In this document: piece by piece, positions 12,562 to 33,834 of the stretch
Numbering within the stretch: position 1 is the stretch's first letter
Layout of the letters: every line of letters starts with the position of its first letter
Origin: Gammaproteobacteria bacterium
GTDB lineage: Bacteria > Pseudomonadota > Gammaproteobacteria > GCF-002020875
NCBI GenBank assembly: GCA_018648825.1
Contig: JABGQL010000057.1
Span: 1 to 33,834, forward strand
Direction: 5' to 3'
DNA: 33,834 nt
Notes under the pieces: model-generated
Told to the model about the DNA's origin: nothing
Database searches by the model: none
What the model saw: only the letters and a program-made list of their open reading frames with translations
Translations under genes and position numbers: made by a program

Positions 12562-13158
12562 ATGGAAAATGAGCATACAACCCCACGCCACAAACAGGGC
12601 GACAAAACCACCGAAGAGATGAATCAAGAAGAGTTGCTGCTCTACAGCATCAACTACTTCCATGAGTCACTGGAAAAACGGGCGGAGATGATCGCCATCA
12701 ACTCCCGCTGGACCAATCGAGTGATTCGCAGCGGCATGTCTGGGCTGATGCTAATCGCACTCTCTATCCTCTTTCTGGTGGTGATTGTTGCCAAACAGAT
12801 GAACCAAGTGGCCGACGTTATGGTCCGACTCGATCAGCAGATGGAGACCCTCGTGACAGATATCGGCCAGATGGAGCACTACGTCGATGCCATTGGCGGC
12901 AGTGTCTCTACCCTGCCACTGATTGTGGAGGAGATCTCAGAGATGGAGAAGACTGTGAACAAACTGGGGGGACACATGACCGAAATCTCTGGACGCATGG
13001 ACCATACCGAGGTGGTAGTGGGTGAGGTGATCAGTGATATCGAAGAGATGGATCAGCATCTCAACTCTGTAAACCACATTGTCCAAGGGATGAACCACAG
13101 CCTCAAACGGGTCGGGCGTCCCTTCCGTCTCTTTAACGATATGGTACCGATGCCATGA
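12562..13158 (+). CDS. Single-pass membrane protein with Met-rich coiled coil (unknown function)
   Basis: I cannot assign a known function. The 198-residue protein has a polar N-terminal cytosolic part (1-60), one transmembrane helix (about 63-83, SGLMLIALSILFLVVIV), and a long helical periplasmic part with heptad-like spacing and many methionines (16 in all). It ends in a short basic/aromatic tail, RVGRPFRLFNDMVPMP. It starts 12 bases after moeA, and its stop overlaps the next gene by ATGA. The layout is shared with the next gene and with the partial gene at the right edge of the window. Automatic pipelines may mislabel such proteins as chemotaxis-like because of the coiled coil, but no methyl-accepting signalling hairpin is visible. 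Confidence 0.8.
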   Translation: MENEHTTPRHKQGDKTTEEMNQEELLLYSINYFHESLEKRAEMIAINSRWTNRVIRSGMSGLMLIALSILFLVVIVAKQMNQVADVMVRLDQQMETLVTDIGQMEHYVDAIGGSVSTLPLIVEEISEMEKTVNKLGGHMTEISGRMDHTEVVVGEVISDIEEMDQHLNSVNHIVQGMNHSLKRVGRPFRLFNDMVPMP

Positions 13159-13703
13159 TGGATTCAAAAACCAGCCTAGAGGTCACCCGCTCCTTCTATG
13201 CACAGATGTGTCAATTTCGTGAGGAGACTGAGAAGCAGCATCTTGATACTGAGCGATCCTCCAAGAAAACCTCCATTCTGGTACAGGGCATTGGTACCCT
13301 GCTACTGGTATTTGTGATTGTCATTGGGGTCTATATGACCCAGCTGACCAACCAGTTCATCCACATTGTGGAGAGCATCGAAAAGATGAACAGTCGTGCA
13401 GTGACTATCTCCGAGCTGATGTCACACATGACGGAAGATGTCACACAGATGAATCAGGATGTCTCTCACATGCACGCCGTACTCAAAAACATGAAGCAGA
13501 TCAACAGCCATATCAGCATCATGGAACAAGAGGTCAACGGTATCACCACAAGCATCAGCCATCTTGATAAGCTTGGAGAGAAGGGGATGAAGGCCGTCAG
13601 TGGGATGAATCAGAAAATGTCCGAAATCAACCGCACCACCAGTCAGATGGAGCTGCGCATGTATCAAATTTCAAAACCAATGAAGGCGATGCCTAGCCAT
13701 TAA
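13155..13703 (+). CDS. Second single-pass membrane protein with Met-rich coiled coil (unknown function)
   Basis: This 182-residue protein has the same architecture as the preceding gene product: a charged cytosolic N-terminus with short coiled-coil potential (about 1-45), one transmembrane helix (about 50-70, GIGTLLLVFVIVIGVYM), and a helical periplasmic domain rich in Met, Asn, Gln and Ser (18 methionines in total). The tail is ISKPMKAMPSH. It is translationally coupled to its neighbour (ATGATG with the TGA inside), which suggests that the two products form a hetero-oligomer or act in the same place. No enzymatic motif is visible. Function is unknown. Confidence 0.8.
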   Translation: MMDSKTSLEVTRSFYAQMCQFREETEKQHLDTERSSKKTSILVQGIGTLLLVFVIVIGVYMTQLTNQFIHIVESIEKMNSRAVTISELMSHMTEDVTQMNQDVSHMHAVLKNMKQINSHISIMEQEVNGITTSISHLDKLGEKGMKAVSGMNQKMSEINRTTSQMELRMYQISKPMKAMPSH

Positions 13704-17605: not shown

Positions 17606-20600
17606 TCACGCCTCTTCAGCACTCACCTTTCTCTCTTTTGCCATCATCATATAGGCGGCAGGCACCACAAACAGGGTAAACAGGGTGCCAATCGAAAGTC
17701 CGCTGAAAATCACCAGTCCCATGGAGTAACGCCCCGCAGCACCTGCACCACTCGCCATCACCAATGGGATCACCCCCAACACCATCGCCGCAGTGGTCAT
17801 CAAGATTGGGCGCAAGCGCACCGATGAGGCCTCGATAATCGCCTCTGCTTTACTACGCCCCAGCAGCTGCAGTTCATTGGCGAACTGCACCATCAAGATA
17901 CCGTGTTTACTGATCAGCCCCATCAACGTCACCAGCCCCACTTGGGTGTAGATGTTGATCGTAGCCAGACCCAGATTGATAAACAGCAGCGCACCAAACA
18001 GCGCCATCGGTACCGAGACCAGAATCACAAAAGGGTCACGAAAGCTGTTGAACTGGATCGCCAGCGCCAGAAAAACGATAACAATCGCAAACAGCATGGT
18101 AAAGACAAAACCACCAGACTCCTGCATATACTGACGAGAGCCACCTGCATAGTCGACACTATAGCCTGCTGGAGCCAGCTCAGAGAGCACTTGACGCATA
18201 AAGTCGAGCACCTGCTGCTGAGACACCCCCGGTGCATAGACCCCAGAAATAGTGGCACTGTTGAGCTGTTGGAAGCGGTTGATCGACTCCGGCACTACAC
18301 TCTGTTCGATGGTCGCAAAGGTGGCGGCCTGCACCATCTCTCCTGATGGGGTACGTACATAGTACTCCAGCACCTGTTCTGGATTGAGGCGATCCTGCTG
18401 CGCCACCTGTGGCATTACCCGATAGGAGCGGCCATCGATAGAGAAGTGGTTGACGTATCCTCCGCCCAGCGCACCCCCCAGTGCTGCACCAATATCACGT
18501 TGGCTCAACCCCAGATCGGCTACCAGATCCCGATCCACCACCAGCGTACTCTGTGGCTTGTCAATCTTCAGATCGGCATCGATAAAGAAGAACATACCGC
18601 TCGCCTGCGCCTGCTCCAGCAGTTGGATCACAATCTCATTCAGACGCTCAAAGGGCTCTGTGGTTTTGACCACGAACTGCAGCGGTAACCCACCCGACCC
18701 GGGTAGCGCAGGCATCTGAAAAGCGGCTACCTTGGCTCCCGCAATCCCATTCCAACGCTGTTGTAGGATTTTCTGTAACTCCGCTGCACTACGCTCGCGC
18801 TGCTCCCACGGGGTAAAGACGGCACCCGCAATCCCTTGGTTGGTGGTTGGGGTACCTGTAATTTGGAACATCTGATCATACTCAGGCAGATCACGGGTCA
18901 GTTGGTAGACTTGATCTGCATAGCTTGCCATCTGCTGTGCGGTGGCGTTGGGTGCGCCCACCACTTGCCCCAACACCAGCCCCTGATCCTCTTCTGGGGC
19001 CAACTCGGATGAGGCCGTTGCAAATAGATAGACCACACCCAACAGCAGTAGCCCCCCCATCACCGCCATCACCGACCACGTCTCCAAGGTACCGCTGAGA
19101 CGTTGTTGATAGCGGTTATGCAGTCGGTTGAACTGTCGATCACTCCACTGCACCAGTGAAGAGTCCTGCTGCCCCGGTTTGAACATACGTGAGGCCATCA
19201 TCGGGGAGAGTGTCAACGCCACCACACCGGAGATGGTGACTGCACCTGCCAGAGTAAAGGCAAACTCGGTAAACAACGCACCCGTCAGCCCTCCCTGAAA
19301 CCCAATCGGCACATAGGCGGCGATCAGCACCACGGTCATTGCGATGATCGGTCCACCCAGCTCACGAGCCGCCATCAACGCCGCCTCCATCGGGGGCTTA
19401 CCCTCCTCGTGCATATGACGATCCACATTCTCCACCACAATAATCGCATCATCTACCACCAGTCCAATCGCCAACACCAGCGAGAGTAGTGTCAGTAGAT
19501 TGATGGTATAGCCGAAGGATTGCATGATAAAGAAGGCCCCGACCAGTGAGAGAGGAATAGCAAGCAGAGGCACCACCACAGCACGCCAACTACCCAAAAA
19601 GAGGAAGACCACCACGGTAACAATCAGTAGCGCCTCCATCAGGGTTTTGATCACCTCTTCAATAGAGCTGTCGATAAACTGGGTACCATCGTAGACAATC
19701 TTGCCCACCAGCCCACTGGGCATCTCTGACTGGATCTGTGGAAACAGTCTCTTTACCCGTTCAACCACCTCCAGTACATTGGCATCGGGTGCGACATTGA
19801 TGCCAATAAAGACCGACTTCTCCCCATCAAACGCGGTGGTGAGGTTATACTCTTCTGCACCCAGCACCACGGTAGCCACATCCTCCAGCCGCACAATGGC
19901 TCCCTCTTGCTCCCATAGAGAGAGGCGCTGAAACGCCTCTACAGAGTGGAGATCGGTAGCCGCATTCAGATCAACACTCACCATCTGCCCCTTACTGCTG
20001 CCCAGTGCGGTTAGGTAGTTATTGGCCGCCAGTGCAGCATGGACATCCGCAGCAGAGAGGCCATAGGCCGCCATCCGCGCCGGATCAAGCCATGCCCGTA
20101 ATGCAAAGCGGCGCTCACCCAAGATCTCTGCCTTCTGCACCCCTTCGACCCCATCCAGTTGCGGCTTCACCACCCGCATCAAATAGTCCGTCACTTGATT
20201 ATTGAGCAGGCGATCACTGGAGAAGCTCATATACATGGAGCCAATCGATTCACCAACCTGCACCGTCAACACCGGCTGCTGTGCCTCACTCGGCAGCTGA
20301 TTCAGTACGGAGTTCACCTTGGCATTGATCTCAGTAAGGGCTCGATTAGAGTCATAGTTAAGACGCAGATTGGCACTGATGATTGATGCTCCACTGACAC
20401 TGGTGGACTTGAGATAGTCGATCCCCTCTGCCTGTGCGATAGCGGTCTCCAGCGGCTGAGTGATAAACCCCGCAACAGTCTCTGCATCAGCACCAAAATA
20501 GACGGTAGTAACGGTGACCACCGCATTCTGCGTCTCTGGATACTGGCGCACCGCCAGTTTGGAGATCGCCTGTATCCCCAGCACCAGAATTAACAGGCTG

Positions 20601-20650
20601 ATGGTGATCGCCAGTACTGGCCTACGAATAAACAAATCTGTGTAGTTCAT
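17606..20650 (-). CDS. RND efflux pump, inner-membrane permease (HAE1 family)
   Basis: This is a 1014-residue AcrB/MexB-type proton-driven exporter of drugs or lipophilic compounds. The N-terminal DLFIRRPVLA start, twelve predicted transmembrane helices in two halves and two large periplasmic loops are present. The proton-relay aspartates are Asp400 and Asp401 in GLVVDDAIIVVENV. Family landmarks include FIRRP, GDGTQF-like YDGTQFIDSSI and RLRPILMTT in the second half. Length fits the HAE1 class, not the heavy-metal (CusA) class, which is longer and has a Met-cluster. Substrate is unknown. It is the third structural gene behind the outer membrane factor and fusion protein, so a full tripartite pump is encoded. 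Confidence 0.95.
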   Translation of the reverse strand: MNYTDLFIRRPVLAITISLLILVLGIQAISKLAVRQYPETQNAVVTVTTVYFGADAETVAGFITQPLETAIAQAEGIDYLKSTSVSGASIISANLRLNYDSNRALTEINAKVNSVLNQLPSEAQQPVLTVQVGESIGSMYMSFSSDRLLNNQVTDYLMRVVKPQLDGVEGVQKAEILGERRFALRAWLDPARMAAYGLSAADVHAALAANNYLTALGSSKGQMVSVDLNAATDLHSVEAFQRLSLWEQEGAIVRLEDVATVVLGAEEYNLTTAFDGEKSVFIGINVAPDANVLEVVERVKRLFPQIQSEMPSGLVGKIVYDGTQFIDSSIEEVIKTLMEALLIVTVVVFLFLGSWRAVVVPLLAIPLSLVGAFFIMQSFGYTINLLTLLSLVLAIGLVVDDAIIVVENVDRHMHEEGKPPMEAALMAARELGGPIIAMTVVLIAAYVPIGFQGGLTGALFTEFAFTLAGAVTISGVVALTLSPMMASRMFKPGQQDSSLVQWSDRQFNRLHNRYQQRLSGTLETWSVMAVMGGLLLLGVVYLFATASSELAPEEDQGLVLGQVVGAPNATAQQMASYADQVYQLTRDLPEYDQMFQITGTPTTNQGIAGAVFTPWEQRERSAAELQKILQQRWNGIAGAKVAAFQMPALPGSGGLPLQFVVKTTEPFERLNEIVIQLLEQAQASGMFFFIDADLKIDKPQSTLVVDRDLVADLGLSQRDIGAALGGALGGGYVNHFSIDGRSYRVMPQVAQQDRLNPEQVLEYYVRTPSGEMVQAATFATIEQSVVPESINRFQQLNSATISGVYAPGVSQQQVLDFMRQVLSELAPAGYSVDYAGGSRQYMQESGGFVFTMLFAIVIVFLALAIQFNSFRDPFVILVSVPMALFGALLFINLGLATINIYTQVGLVTLMGLISKHGILMVQFANELQLLGRSKAEAIIEASSVRLRPILMTTAAMVLGVIPLVMASGAGAAGRYSMGLVIFSGLSIGTLFTLFVVPAAYMMMAKERKVSAEEA

Positions 20651-32756: not shown

Positions 32757-33254
32757 ATGAAAAAGGTTTTCCGTTCTCTTATCGCTCTTGGTTTCACACT
32801 CAGCGTCTCTCTCTCCGCTTTTCAGGCTAATGCTGGCTTTGGTTTTAATGATCTCTATGTTGCAACCGATGTTGAAGCTGGGATTACAGGTGCTGATGTG
32901 GATGAGTCCATCAAGCAGCTAGCAATCAGTGAAGGCATTCTGCATGTCGCAATGTTCCCACTGAGCAAGCAGGTAGAGAAGGTGACGGGCTCCCCTTATC
33001 GTCATCTGAGTATTCACAACATCTGTGATGCAAAGACCGCCTCCCTGCTGGCTGATGTCTCTGACGCCTTTGTGATCGTCATGCCTTGCCGTATTGCAGT
33101 GGTTGAAGGCAAAGATGGCGTAGTCAGAATGTGGAGCATGAACCCTGCGATGATCACCATGATGCAGATGCCTGAAGAGCAACAAAGACTGGCGAAGATG
33201 ATCGCTGGTAAGATGCAGAATATTATCAATGGTGCTGCTGAGGGTGCCTTCTAA
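32757..33254 (+). CDS. Exported DUF302-like protein
   Basis: This 165-residue protein has a signal peptide (MKKVFRSLIALGFTLSVSLS, cleavage after about residue 26, QANA). The mature part resembles DUF302: HLSIHNICDAKTASLLADVSDAFVIVMPCRIAVVEGKDG with two conserved cysteines (in HNIC and MPC), followed by the MNPAMITMMQMP segment and a C-terminal helix. DUF302 has no settled function; members occur in the periplasm of sulfur- and metal-exposed bacteria. AAAAGGA lies twelve bases before the start, rather far. It is convergent with a Met-rich coiled-coil gene, sharing a perfect hairpin terminator. Confidence 0.78.
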   Translation: MKKVFRSLIALGFTLSVSLSAFQANAGFGFNDLYVATDVEAGITGADVDESIKQLAISEGILHVAMFPLSKQVEKVTGSPYRHLSIHNICDAKTASLLADVSDAFVIVMPCRIAVVEGKDGVVRMWSMNPAMITMMQMPEEQQRLAKMIAGKMQNIINGAAEGAF

Positions 33255-33322: not shown

Positions 33323-33834
33323 TTAGAAGGGGCTAAAGCGGGAGAACATCCCTCGGGGTGACATTCCACGATTCATAGAGCCCATCTCACGGGTCATATG
33401 GAAGGTACTGTTAGCCATATGCTGTGTAGACTGATCTAAGTTAACCATACTCGCCATCATCGGCTCTAGTGTCTGGGTATGCCCGGTGATCTGCTGCATA
33501 CTACCGCGCATATCTTCCATAGAGACGGTAATCGCCTCCATGTTGCCATCAATGGCGTTAAGGTTACGGGTCATCACCTGCACATTGCTGGACATATTCT
33601 CAATGCCATCAACCATGCTTGCCATATGCGGCCCCATGTAAGGATCAATGCTGGTAGAGATCACCTGAATGTTACGCGCGATGTGCGACATATCCTGAGT
33701 CAGATGATAGATCATGTAGAAGCCATAGATAGAGAGTACGCAGAACGCAAACAACGCAGGATAGACCACCATCTCCCAACGACGTGCGCTCTTCTCAAAG
33801 CAGCTGGCAAAACGCTCTAGTGGCTGCCCATTCA
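33323..33834 (-). CDS. Third Met-rich coiled-coil membrane protein (N-terminus cut by window edge)
   Basis: The frame is open to the right edge, so the start is missing. The visible part begins NGQPLERFASCFEKSARRWE, then a transmembrane helix (MVVYPALFAFCVLSIYGFYM). A helical periplasmic part with heptad-like spacing follows (MSHIARNIQVISTSIDPYM, then GPHMASMVDGIENM) and ends in a Gly/Met/Arg/Phe tail, MSPRGMFSRFSPF. There are 21 Met in the last 149 residues. The layout (polar N-part, one TM, Met-rich coil, short basic tail) matches the two genes at 12562-13703. Function is unknown. It converges with the DUF302-like gene. Confidence 0.78.
   Translation of the reverse strand, partial: NGQPLERFASCFEKSARRWEMVVYPALFAFCVLSIYGFYMIYHLTQDMSHIARNIQVISTSIDPYMGPHMASMVDGIENMSSNVQVMTRNLNAIDGNMEAITVSMEDMRGSMQQITGHTQTLEPMMASMVNLDQSTQHMANSTFHMTREMGSMNRGMSPRGMFSRFSPF

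Follow-up and report, generated by a model that had tools for sequence, protein, structure and literature searches.

Methionine-rich coiled coils have been described for RND-type permeases of the MmpL group. The coil of MmpL5 was modelled as a hexameric barrel of ~13 nm whose lumen is lined by Met, and it is described as essential (PMC12501195); that of MmpL4 is lined with 45 Met residues, 15 per hairpin (PMC12803245). For MmpL4 and MmpL5 with MmpS4/5, a Met-lined six-helix conduit was proposed, a tube of ~13 nm that measures ~18 nm from transmembrane (TM) region to tip, and a single-pass partner protein is required (PMC12501195, PMC12803245). AcrZ is described as a small protein that targets the transmembrane region of E. 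coli AcrB (PMC7267776). Periplasmic coils are furthermore found in the adaptors (MFP/HlyD) of tripartite pumps, and Pfam holds coil families such as DUF948 and DUF1664. Here we analysed a stretch of 33,834 nucleotides of gammaproteobacterial DNA (the window) that contains the following features:

12562..13158, plus strand: gene A, intact, 198 aa, N-in single-pass protein; TM at about residues 58-77, coil at about 78-184, C-terminal tail RPFRLFNDMVPMP
13155..13158, plus strand: ATGA stop/start overlap of A and B, 4 bases
13155..13703, plus strand: gene B, intact, 182 aa, apparent paralogue of A with the same design; TM at about residues 40-60, one predicted helix at 3-173
32757..33254, plus strand: gene for a DUF302 protein (PF03625, E=3.8e-7), convergent with C
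33323..33834, minus strand: 3' part of gene C, third relative of A/B, single-copy; 5' end beyond a scaffold gap

A and B each consist of a basic part ahead of the TM segment, one hydrophobic segment, a Met-rich coil of ~120 residues and a short conserved tail; overall, Met makes up 8-10% of each protein. The overlap of the two reading frames probably couples their translation. In AF2 models (pTM 0.28-0.30, folded as single chains), A forms helices 22-116 and 118-194 with a mean pLDDT of 81, and B its one helix with a mean pLDDT of 84. The AF2 helix of A breaks near a conserved proline, residue 119, and many A and B proteins have a Pro at the equivalent site in mid-coil (e.g. STLPLIVEEI). The preliminary description of this DNA had already recognised two overlapping genes of common design, with one TM helix and a Met-rich coil, and had taken C as the sign of a recurrent family. 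Both statements hold: A and B are intact, C is real though N-terminally cut, and the genome harbours a second pair.

Like the MmpL4/5 systems, A and B feature a putatively RND-associated heptad coil with a Met-enriched core and a similar reach, and they are themselves single-pass proteins. In contrast, the MmpL-type hairpin inserted in the permease is absent. The MmpL coil is an antiparallel hairpin, whereas A and B are separate single-pass helices from two genes that would run in parallel. A/B also have no Ig-like domain and no MmpL homology detectable beyond the generic coil; a profile search against MmpL4 gave E=1.3e-3, no better than against other coils, and a PDB fold search with the A model gave no match. 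Moreover, the permeases mainly linked to A/B are of the AcrB type with MFP and OMF genes, unlike the MmpL system. The likeness to MmpL is one of analogy, not homology. Compared by description, AcrZ is an accessory membrane protein of an AcrB-type RND, as A/B would be. AcrZ is single-pass and is not known to contain a coil. Periplasmic adaptors provide the periplasmic coils of tripartite pumps, as A/B would; however, A/B accompany an MFP gene, and neither gave an adaptor-family (MFP/HlyD) match.

Searches of A, B and C with Pfam, NCBIfam, PHROGs and PADLOC returned sub-threshold coil matches only. DUF948 (PF06103) scored 27.6, 22.4 and 25.7 bits versus a gathering cut-off of 37.2, and DUF1664 scored 23.6 on A versus 34.6; weak matches to these two families were found in 9 and 11 of 20 members, respectively. 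Domain-model searches revealed no sensor, signalling or catalytic domain in A/B, and the literature search for a described equivalent of the A/B/C proteins yielded nothing specific. The earlier statement that the pair has no known domain is thus borne out, as no characterised family exceeded its cut-off in Pfam or NCBIfam and the MCP-type domains scored below theirs. A phage protein was rejected likewise, with only weak PHROG matches (best E=9e-4) and no relatives of A among viral contigs and plasmids.

The second A/B pair in the genome of the window (G000:C9) is 56% and 47% identical to the first, has the same ATGA overlap and is followed by an ankyrin-repeat gene. A/B pairs are present in three of five sister genomes. 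The ATGA overlap is kept at four of five A/B loci (including L005, L023 and L025), with a short gap at L024 (genome G004), and orthologues preserve the pairing and the presumed coupling. An ankyrin-repeat-like gene lies directly downstream of A/B at L005 (7660-8103, where the Pfam match was run) and at L025 (7869-8405), with no adjacent RND. The preliminary description had placed the pair behind moeA, and in the window moeA indeed lies 12 bp ahead of A; this context is lineage-specific, however, being common to the window and G002 only. The copies in G003, G004 and C9 have other neighbours, and we therefore consider moeA an incidental neighbour and reject a link to molybdenum.

A profile of A picks up B as a weak match, and A and B hence look like distant paralogues. 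Profiles of the A, B and C types detect the family well outside the genus, in 81 of the 369 gammaproteobacterial genomes sampled and in 59 of 271 genera. Tandem A-then-B pairs recur in a second class of the phylum, probably the Magnetococcia, and relatives occur in many sulfur-oxidising and magnetotactic-type bacteria. In all 30 pairs collected, the A-like gene came first and the B-like gene second; gammaproteobacterial pairs helped build the A and B profiles, second-class pairs did not, and at L163 both genes scored best with the A profile. An apparent A match in L242 was unconfirmed and dropped. The fixed gene order and the near-equal coils of 123 and 124 residues make the heteromeric envelope element suggested earlier plausible. 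A fourth family member with 16-18% Met and the tail TEPEKLMFPFAR was seen in the genome of the window (L155, G000:C112, 8232-8774) and in sister genome G001 (L135, 8402-8953); in both, a gene of 142 aa precedes it and one of 145-147 aa follows.

Coil anatomy was analysed on 117 family members, of which 108 have exactly one TM segment. Net charge averages +1.9 ahead of this segment and -0.6 behind it, and by the charge rule the N terminus is inside and the coil periplasmic in 85% of members. The part following the TM segment is near constant in length, with medians of 123 residues for A (quartiles 121-126) and 124 for B (123-128). It corresponds to ~18 nm of helix, long enough to cross the periplasm, and ends in a conserved RPM.xFN.xxPF-like tail with aromatic and Pro residues. 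Met amounts to 13% of the coil, and its spacing is heptadic: Met-Met pairs occur at 3.7 times expectation at distance 7, 3.3 times at 14 and 1.4-1.7 times at 3, 4, 10 and 11, and off-register spacings fall to 0.10-0.38 of expectation. With the heptad register fitted to the hydrophobic core, 45-61% of d positions and 33-38% of a positions are Met, and S, T, N and D prevail at e and g. Columns that hold Met in the window proteins can hold I, V, L or F instead in distant relatives. From this exchange and the position in the heptad core it follows that the methionines probably are packing or lumen residues rather than exposed metal ligands.

The strongest clue to function is the association with a divergent RND subfamily (RND-X), which was absent from the preliminary description. 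RND-X lies directly ahead in 11 of the 30 A/B pairs examined, one of these in Gammaproteobacteria. Ten of 13 second-class pairs display the order OMF-MFP-RND-A-B, with overlaps or 0-39 bp before A, although the OMF was not labelled at every such locus; the same order occurs at the gammaproteobacterial locus L116, with 204 bp before A. In one bacterial family, two genomes (L126, L131) have a single A gene at a distance of 36 bp downstream of an MMPL/HAE3-type RND, and a third genome of that family (L120) has an RND of this type on the same 17-kb stretch as its single A. In arbitrary control regions of 17 kb each from genomes of the set, no RND was found (0/18).

The linked RNDs of the AcrB type all group in a single clade (support 1.0) that excludes ordinary RNDs from the same genomes. 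Within it, AB-linked RNDs are a subclade (0.999), C-linked RNDs are another, and a third set is without linked family genes. Against the best multidrug RND model, these permeases score no more than 419-456 bits versus 1115 for the ordinary RND of the window, and they carry the HAE-type motif LVDDAIVVVEN. At the level of genomes, RND-X matches of at least 1620 bits, a threshold set after the list was seen, were counted in 72 of the 369 genomes, with the coil family present in 71 of these; conversely, 71 of the 81 family genomes have such a high-scoring RND-X, as scored with a profile trained mostly on linked loci, together with own-genome copies. The Fisher p-values of this co-occurrence are inflated by common descent of the genomes. 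In several genomes, RND-X lies ~3-16 kb from soxB (e.g. G062:C30, G198:C36, G136:C1, G337:C3), in some of them without the coil family.

Gene C sits in a locus of the RND-bearing type. A run of N, the scaffold gap, starts at the window edge, and C is therefore truncated, its true N terminus lying across the gap, where 18 codons of C are repeated. The gap itself (C35:33835-33934) has ~50 bp repeated on both sides and likely reflects an unresolved overlap. Intact C orthologues of sister genomes (L142, L143, L151) have about 177-205 aa. C-type loci draw in varying subsets on MFP, RND, DUF4412/LolA-like, ParA/MipZ-like ATPase, TPR, DUF302, C and dynamin-like GTPase genes. The dynamin-like gene is directly 3' of C, and in several other genomes DUF302 genes are directly 5' of it. 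An RND was located on the same stretch as the C-type gene at 19 of 42 loci; many of these loci are truncated. Within the genus (L017, 1198-8740; L142, L143, L151), the locus is kept as a small gene, MFP, RND-X, a 273-aa protein, DUF4412/LolA-like, TPR and C; in many other genomes it also includes ParA/MipZ-like, DUF302 and dynamin-like genes.

The relatives of A, B and C thus adjoin one unusual class of RND pump, which suggests that they are unrecognised pump parts. We estimate at roughly one in two the probability that A and B, and C as the single-gene version, are in some form accessory subunits of divergent RND-type trans-envelope transporters. Each protein would place one anchor helix in the inner membrane and send a methionine-cored helix of ~18 nm across the periplasm. 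A and B might be made together by coupled translation and pair in register via their Met/Ile/Val cores. Most likely, the helices would bundle on the RND trimer or next to it, for instance as a six-helix barrel of 3A+3B with a Met-lined lumen; combined with an RND trimer, three copies of each protein also give six helices. Such a bundle could guide or gate a hydrophobic substrate on its way to the outer membrane, a role that has been proposed for the MmpL4/MmpL5 coiled coil. Tentatively, stand-alone Met-lined helical barrels, of A+B or of C alone, may serve as trans-periplasmic conduits of a widespread Gram-negative RND class. Equally speculative is that such conduits would correspond to the MmpL coiled-coil tube, here encoded by genes of their own, with ties to sulfur-oxidising lifestyles and, at the C locus, to ParA-like and dynamin-like partners.

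The main weakness of the accessory-subunit reading lies in the window itself. Its A/B pair has no adjacent RND of the linked subfamily. The RND closest to the pair, at 17606-20650 on the minus strand, is of the ordinary type, and we rejected it as a partner since it falls outside the linked clade in the tree. An AB-clade RND was not found in the genome of the window, whose three copies of RND-X all belong to the C-linked clade. As no such RND adjoins, A/B of the window would need an RND partner from a different locus.

The coils might instead be tethers or rulers that span the periplasm and hold the RND, the adaptor, the outer membrane or the peptidoglycan at a fixed distance or position, with no substrate carried; the ParA/MipZ-like, TPR and dynamin-like proteins on the C side would then be positioning machinery. 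This is possible, if rather doubtful. The near-constant coil of 123-124 residues (~18 nm) with its conserved aromatic/Pro tail is in agreement with a ruler, and so are the ParA-like and dynamin-like genes next to C. However, a tether could do without a methionine core, plain coils do not usually have Met at 45-61% of their d positions, and the place in an RND operon points to transport.

Alternatively, the family could mark a lifestyle, as an envelope family of sulfur oxidisers that is co-kept with RND-X and makes no direct contact with it. SoxB is indeed found in 70 of the 81 family genomes versus 80 of 288 others, and a DUF302 gene lies within the sox cluster of several chemolithoautotrophs (PMC5037610). 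Even among SoxB-positive genomes, however, the family still tracks high-scoring RND-X (64/6/0/80), and its operon-like adjacency to RND genes extends over two classes, so that we regard a mere marker as unlikely.

A Cu(I)/methionine-based sensor, as guessed in the preliminary description, or a metal-binding coil would account for the high Met content and the MxxM spacing. This guess is not supported: Met stands in heptad register only, at core a/d positions that exchange with I/V/L/F, no sensor or catalytic domain accompanies it, and the linked RNDs are HAE-like, not CusA-like, with 228-255 bits on the CusA/CzcA metal-efflux model versus a cut-off of 701. We rejected the Cu(I) ligand role on Met periodicity and consider copper sensing very improbable. 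A degenerate, MCP-like chemoreceptor or a generic DUF948-type coil with a signalling role is just as improbable: MCP coils top the otherwise generic coil matches of a profile search against PDB sequences (E=5e-9) and weak MCPsignal and DUF948 matches exist, but all are below curated cut-offs (MCPsignal 16.5 and 14.2 bits versus 34.6, HAMP_2 12.9 versus 24.3) and common to unrelated coils, HAMP and signalling tip are absent, and the charge rule places the coil in the periplasm.

A family that no model detects above cut-off is nonetheless carried by about a fifth of the sampled gammaproteobacterial genomes and by a second class. If its members are RND subunits, they would represent a further type of component for Gram-negative trans-envelope pumps. 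Methionine-cored helical conduits, if real, would then be a principle wider than mycobacteria, and the family would help to find out which substrates sulfur oxidisers transport across the envelope.
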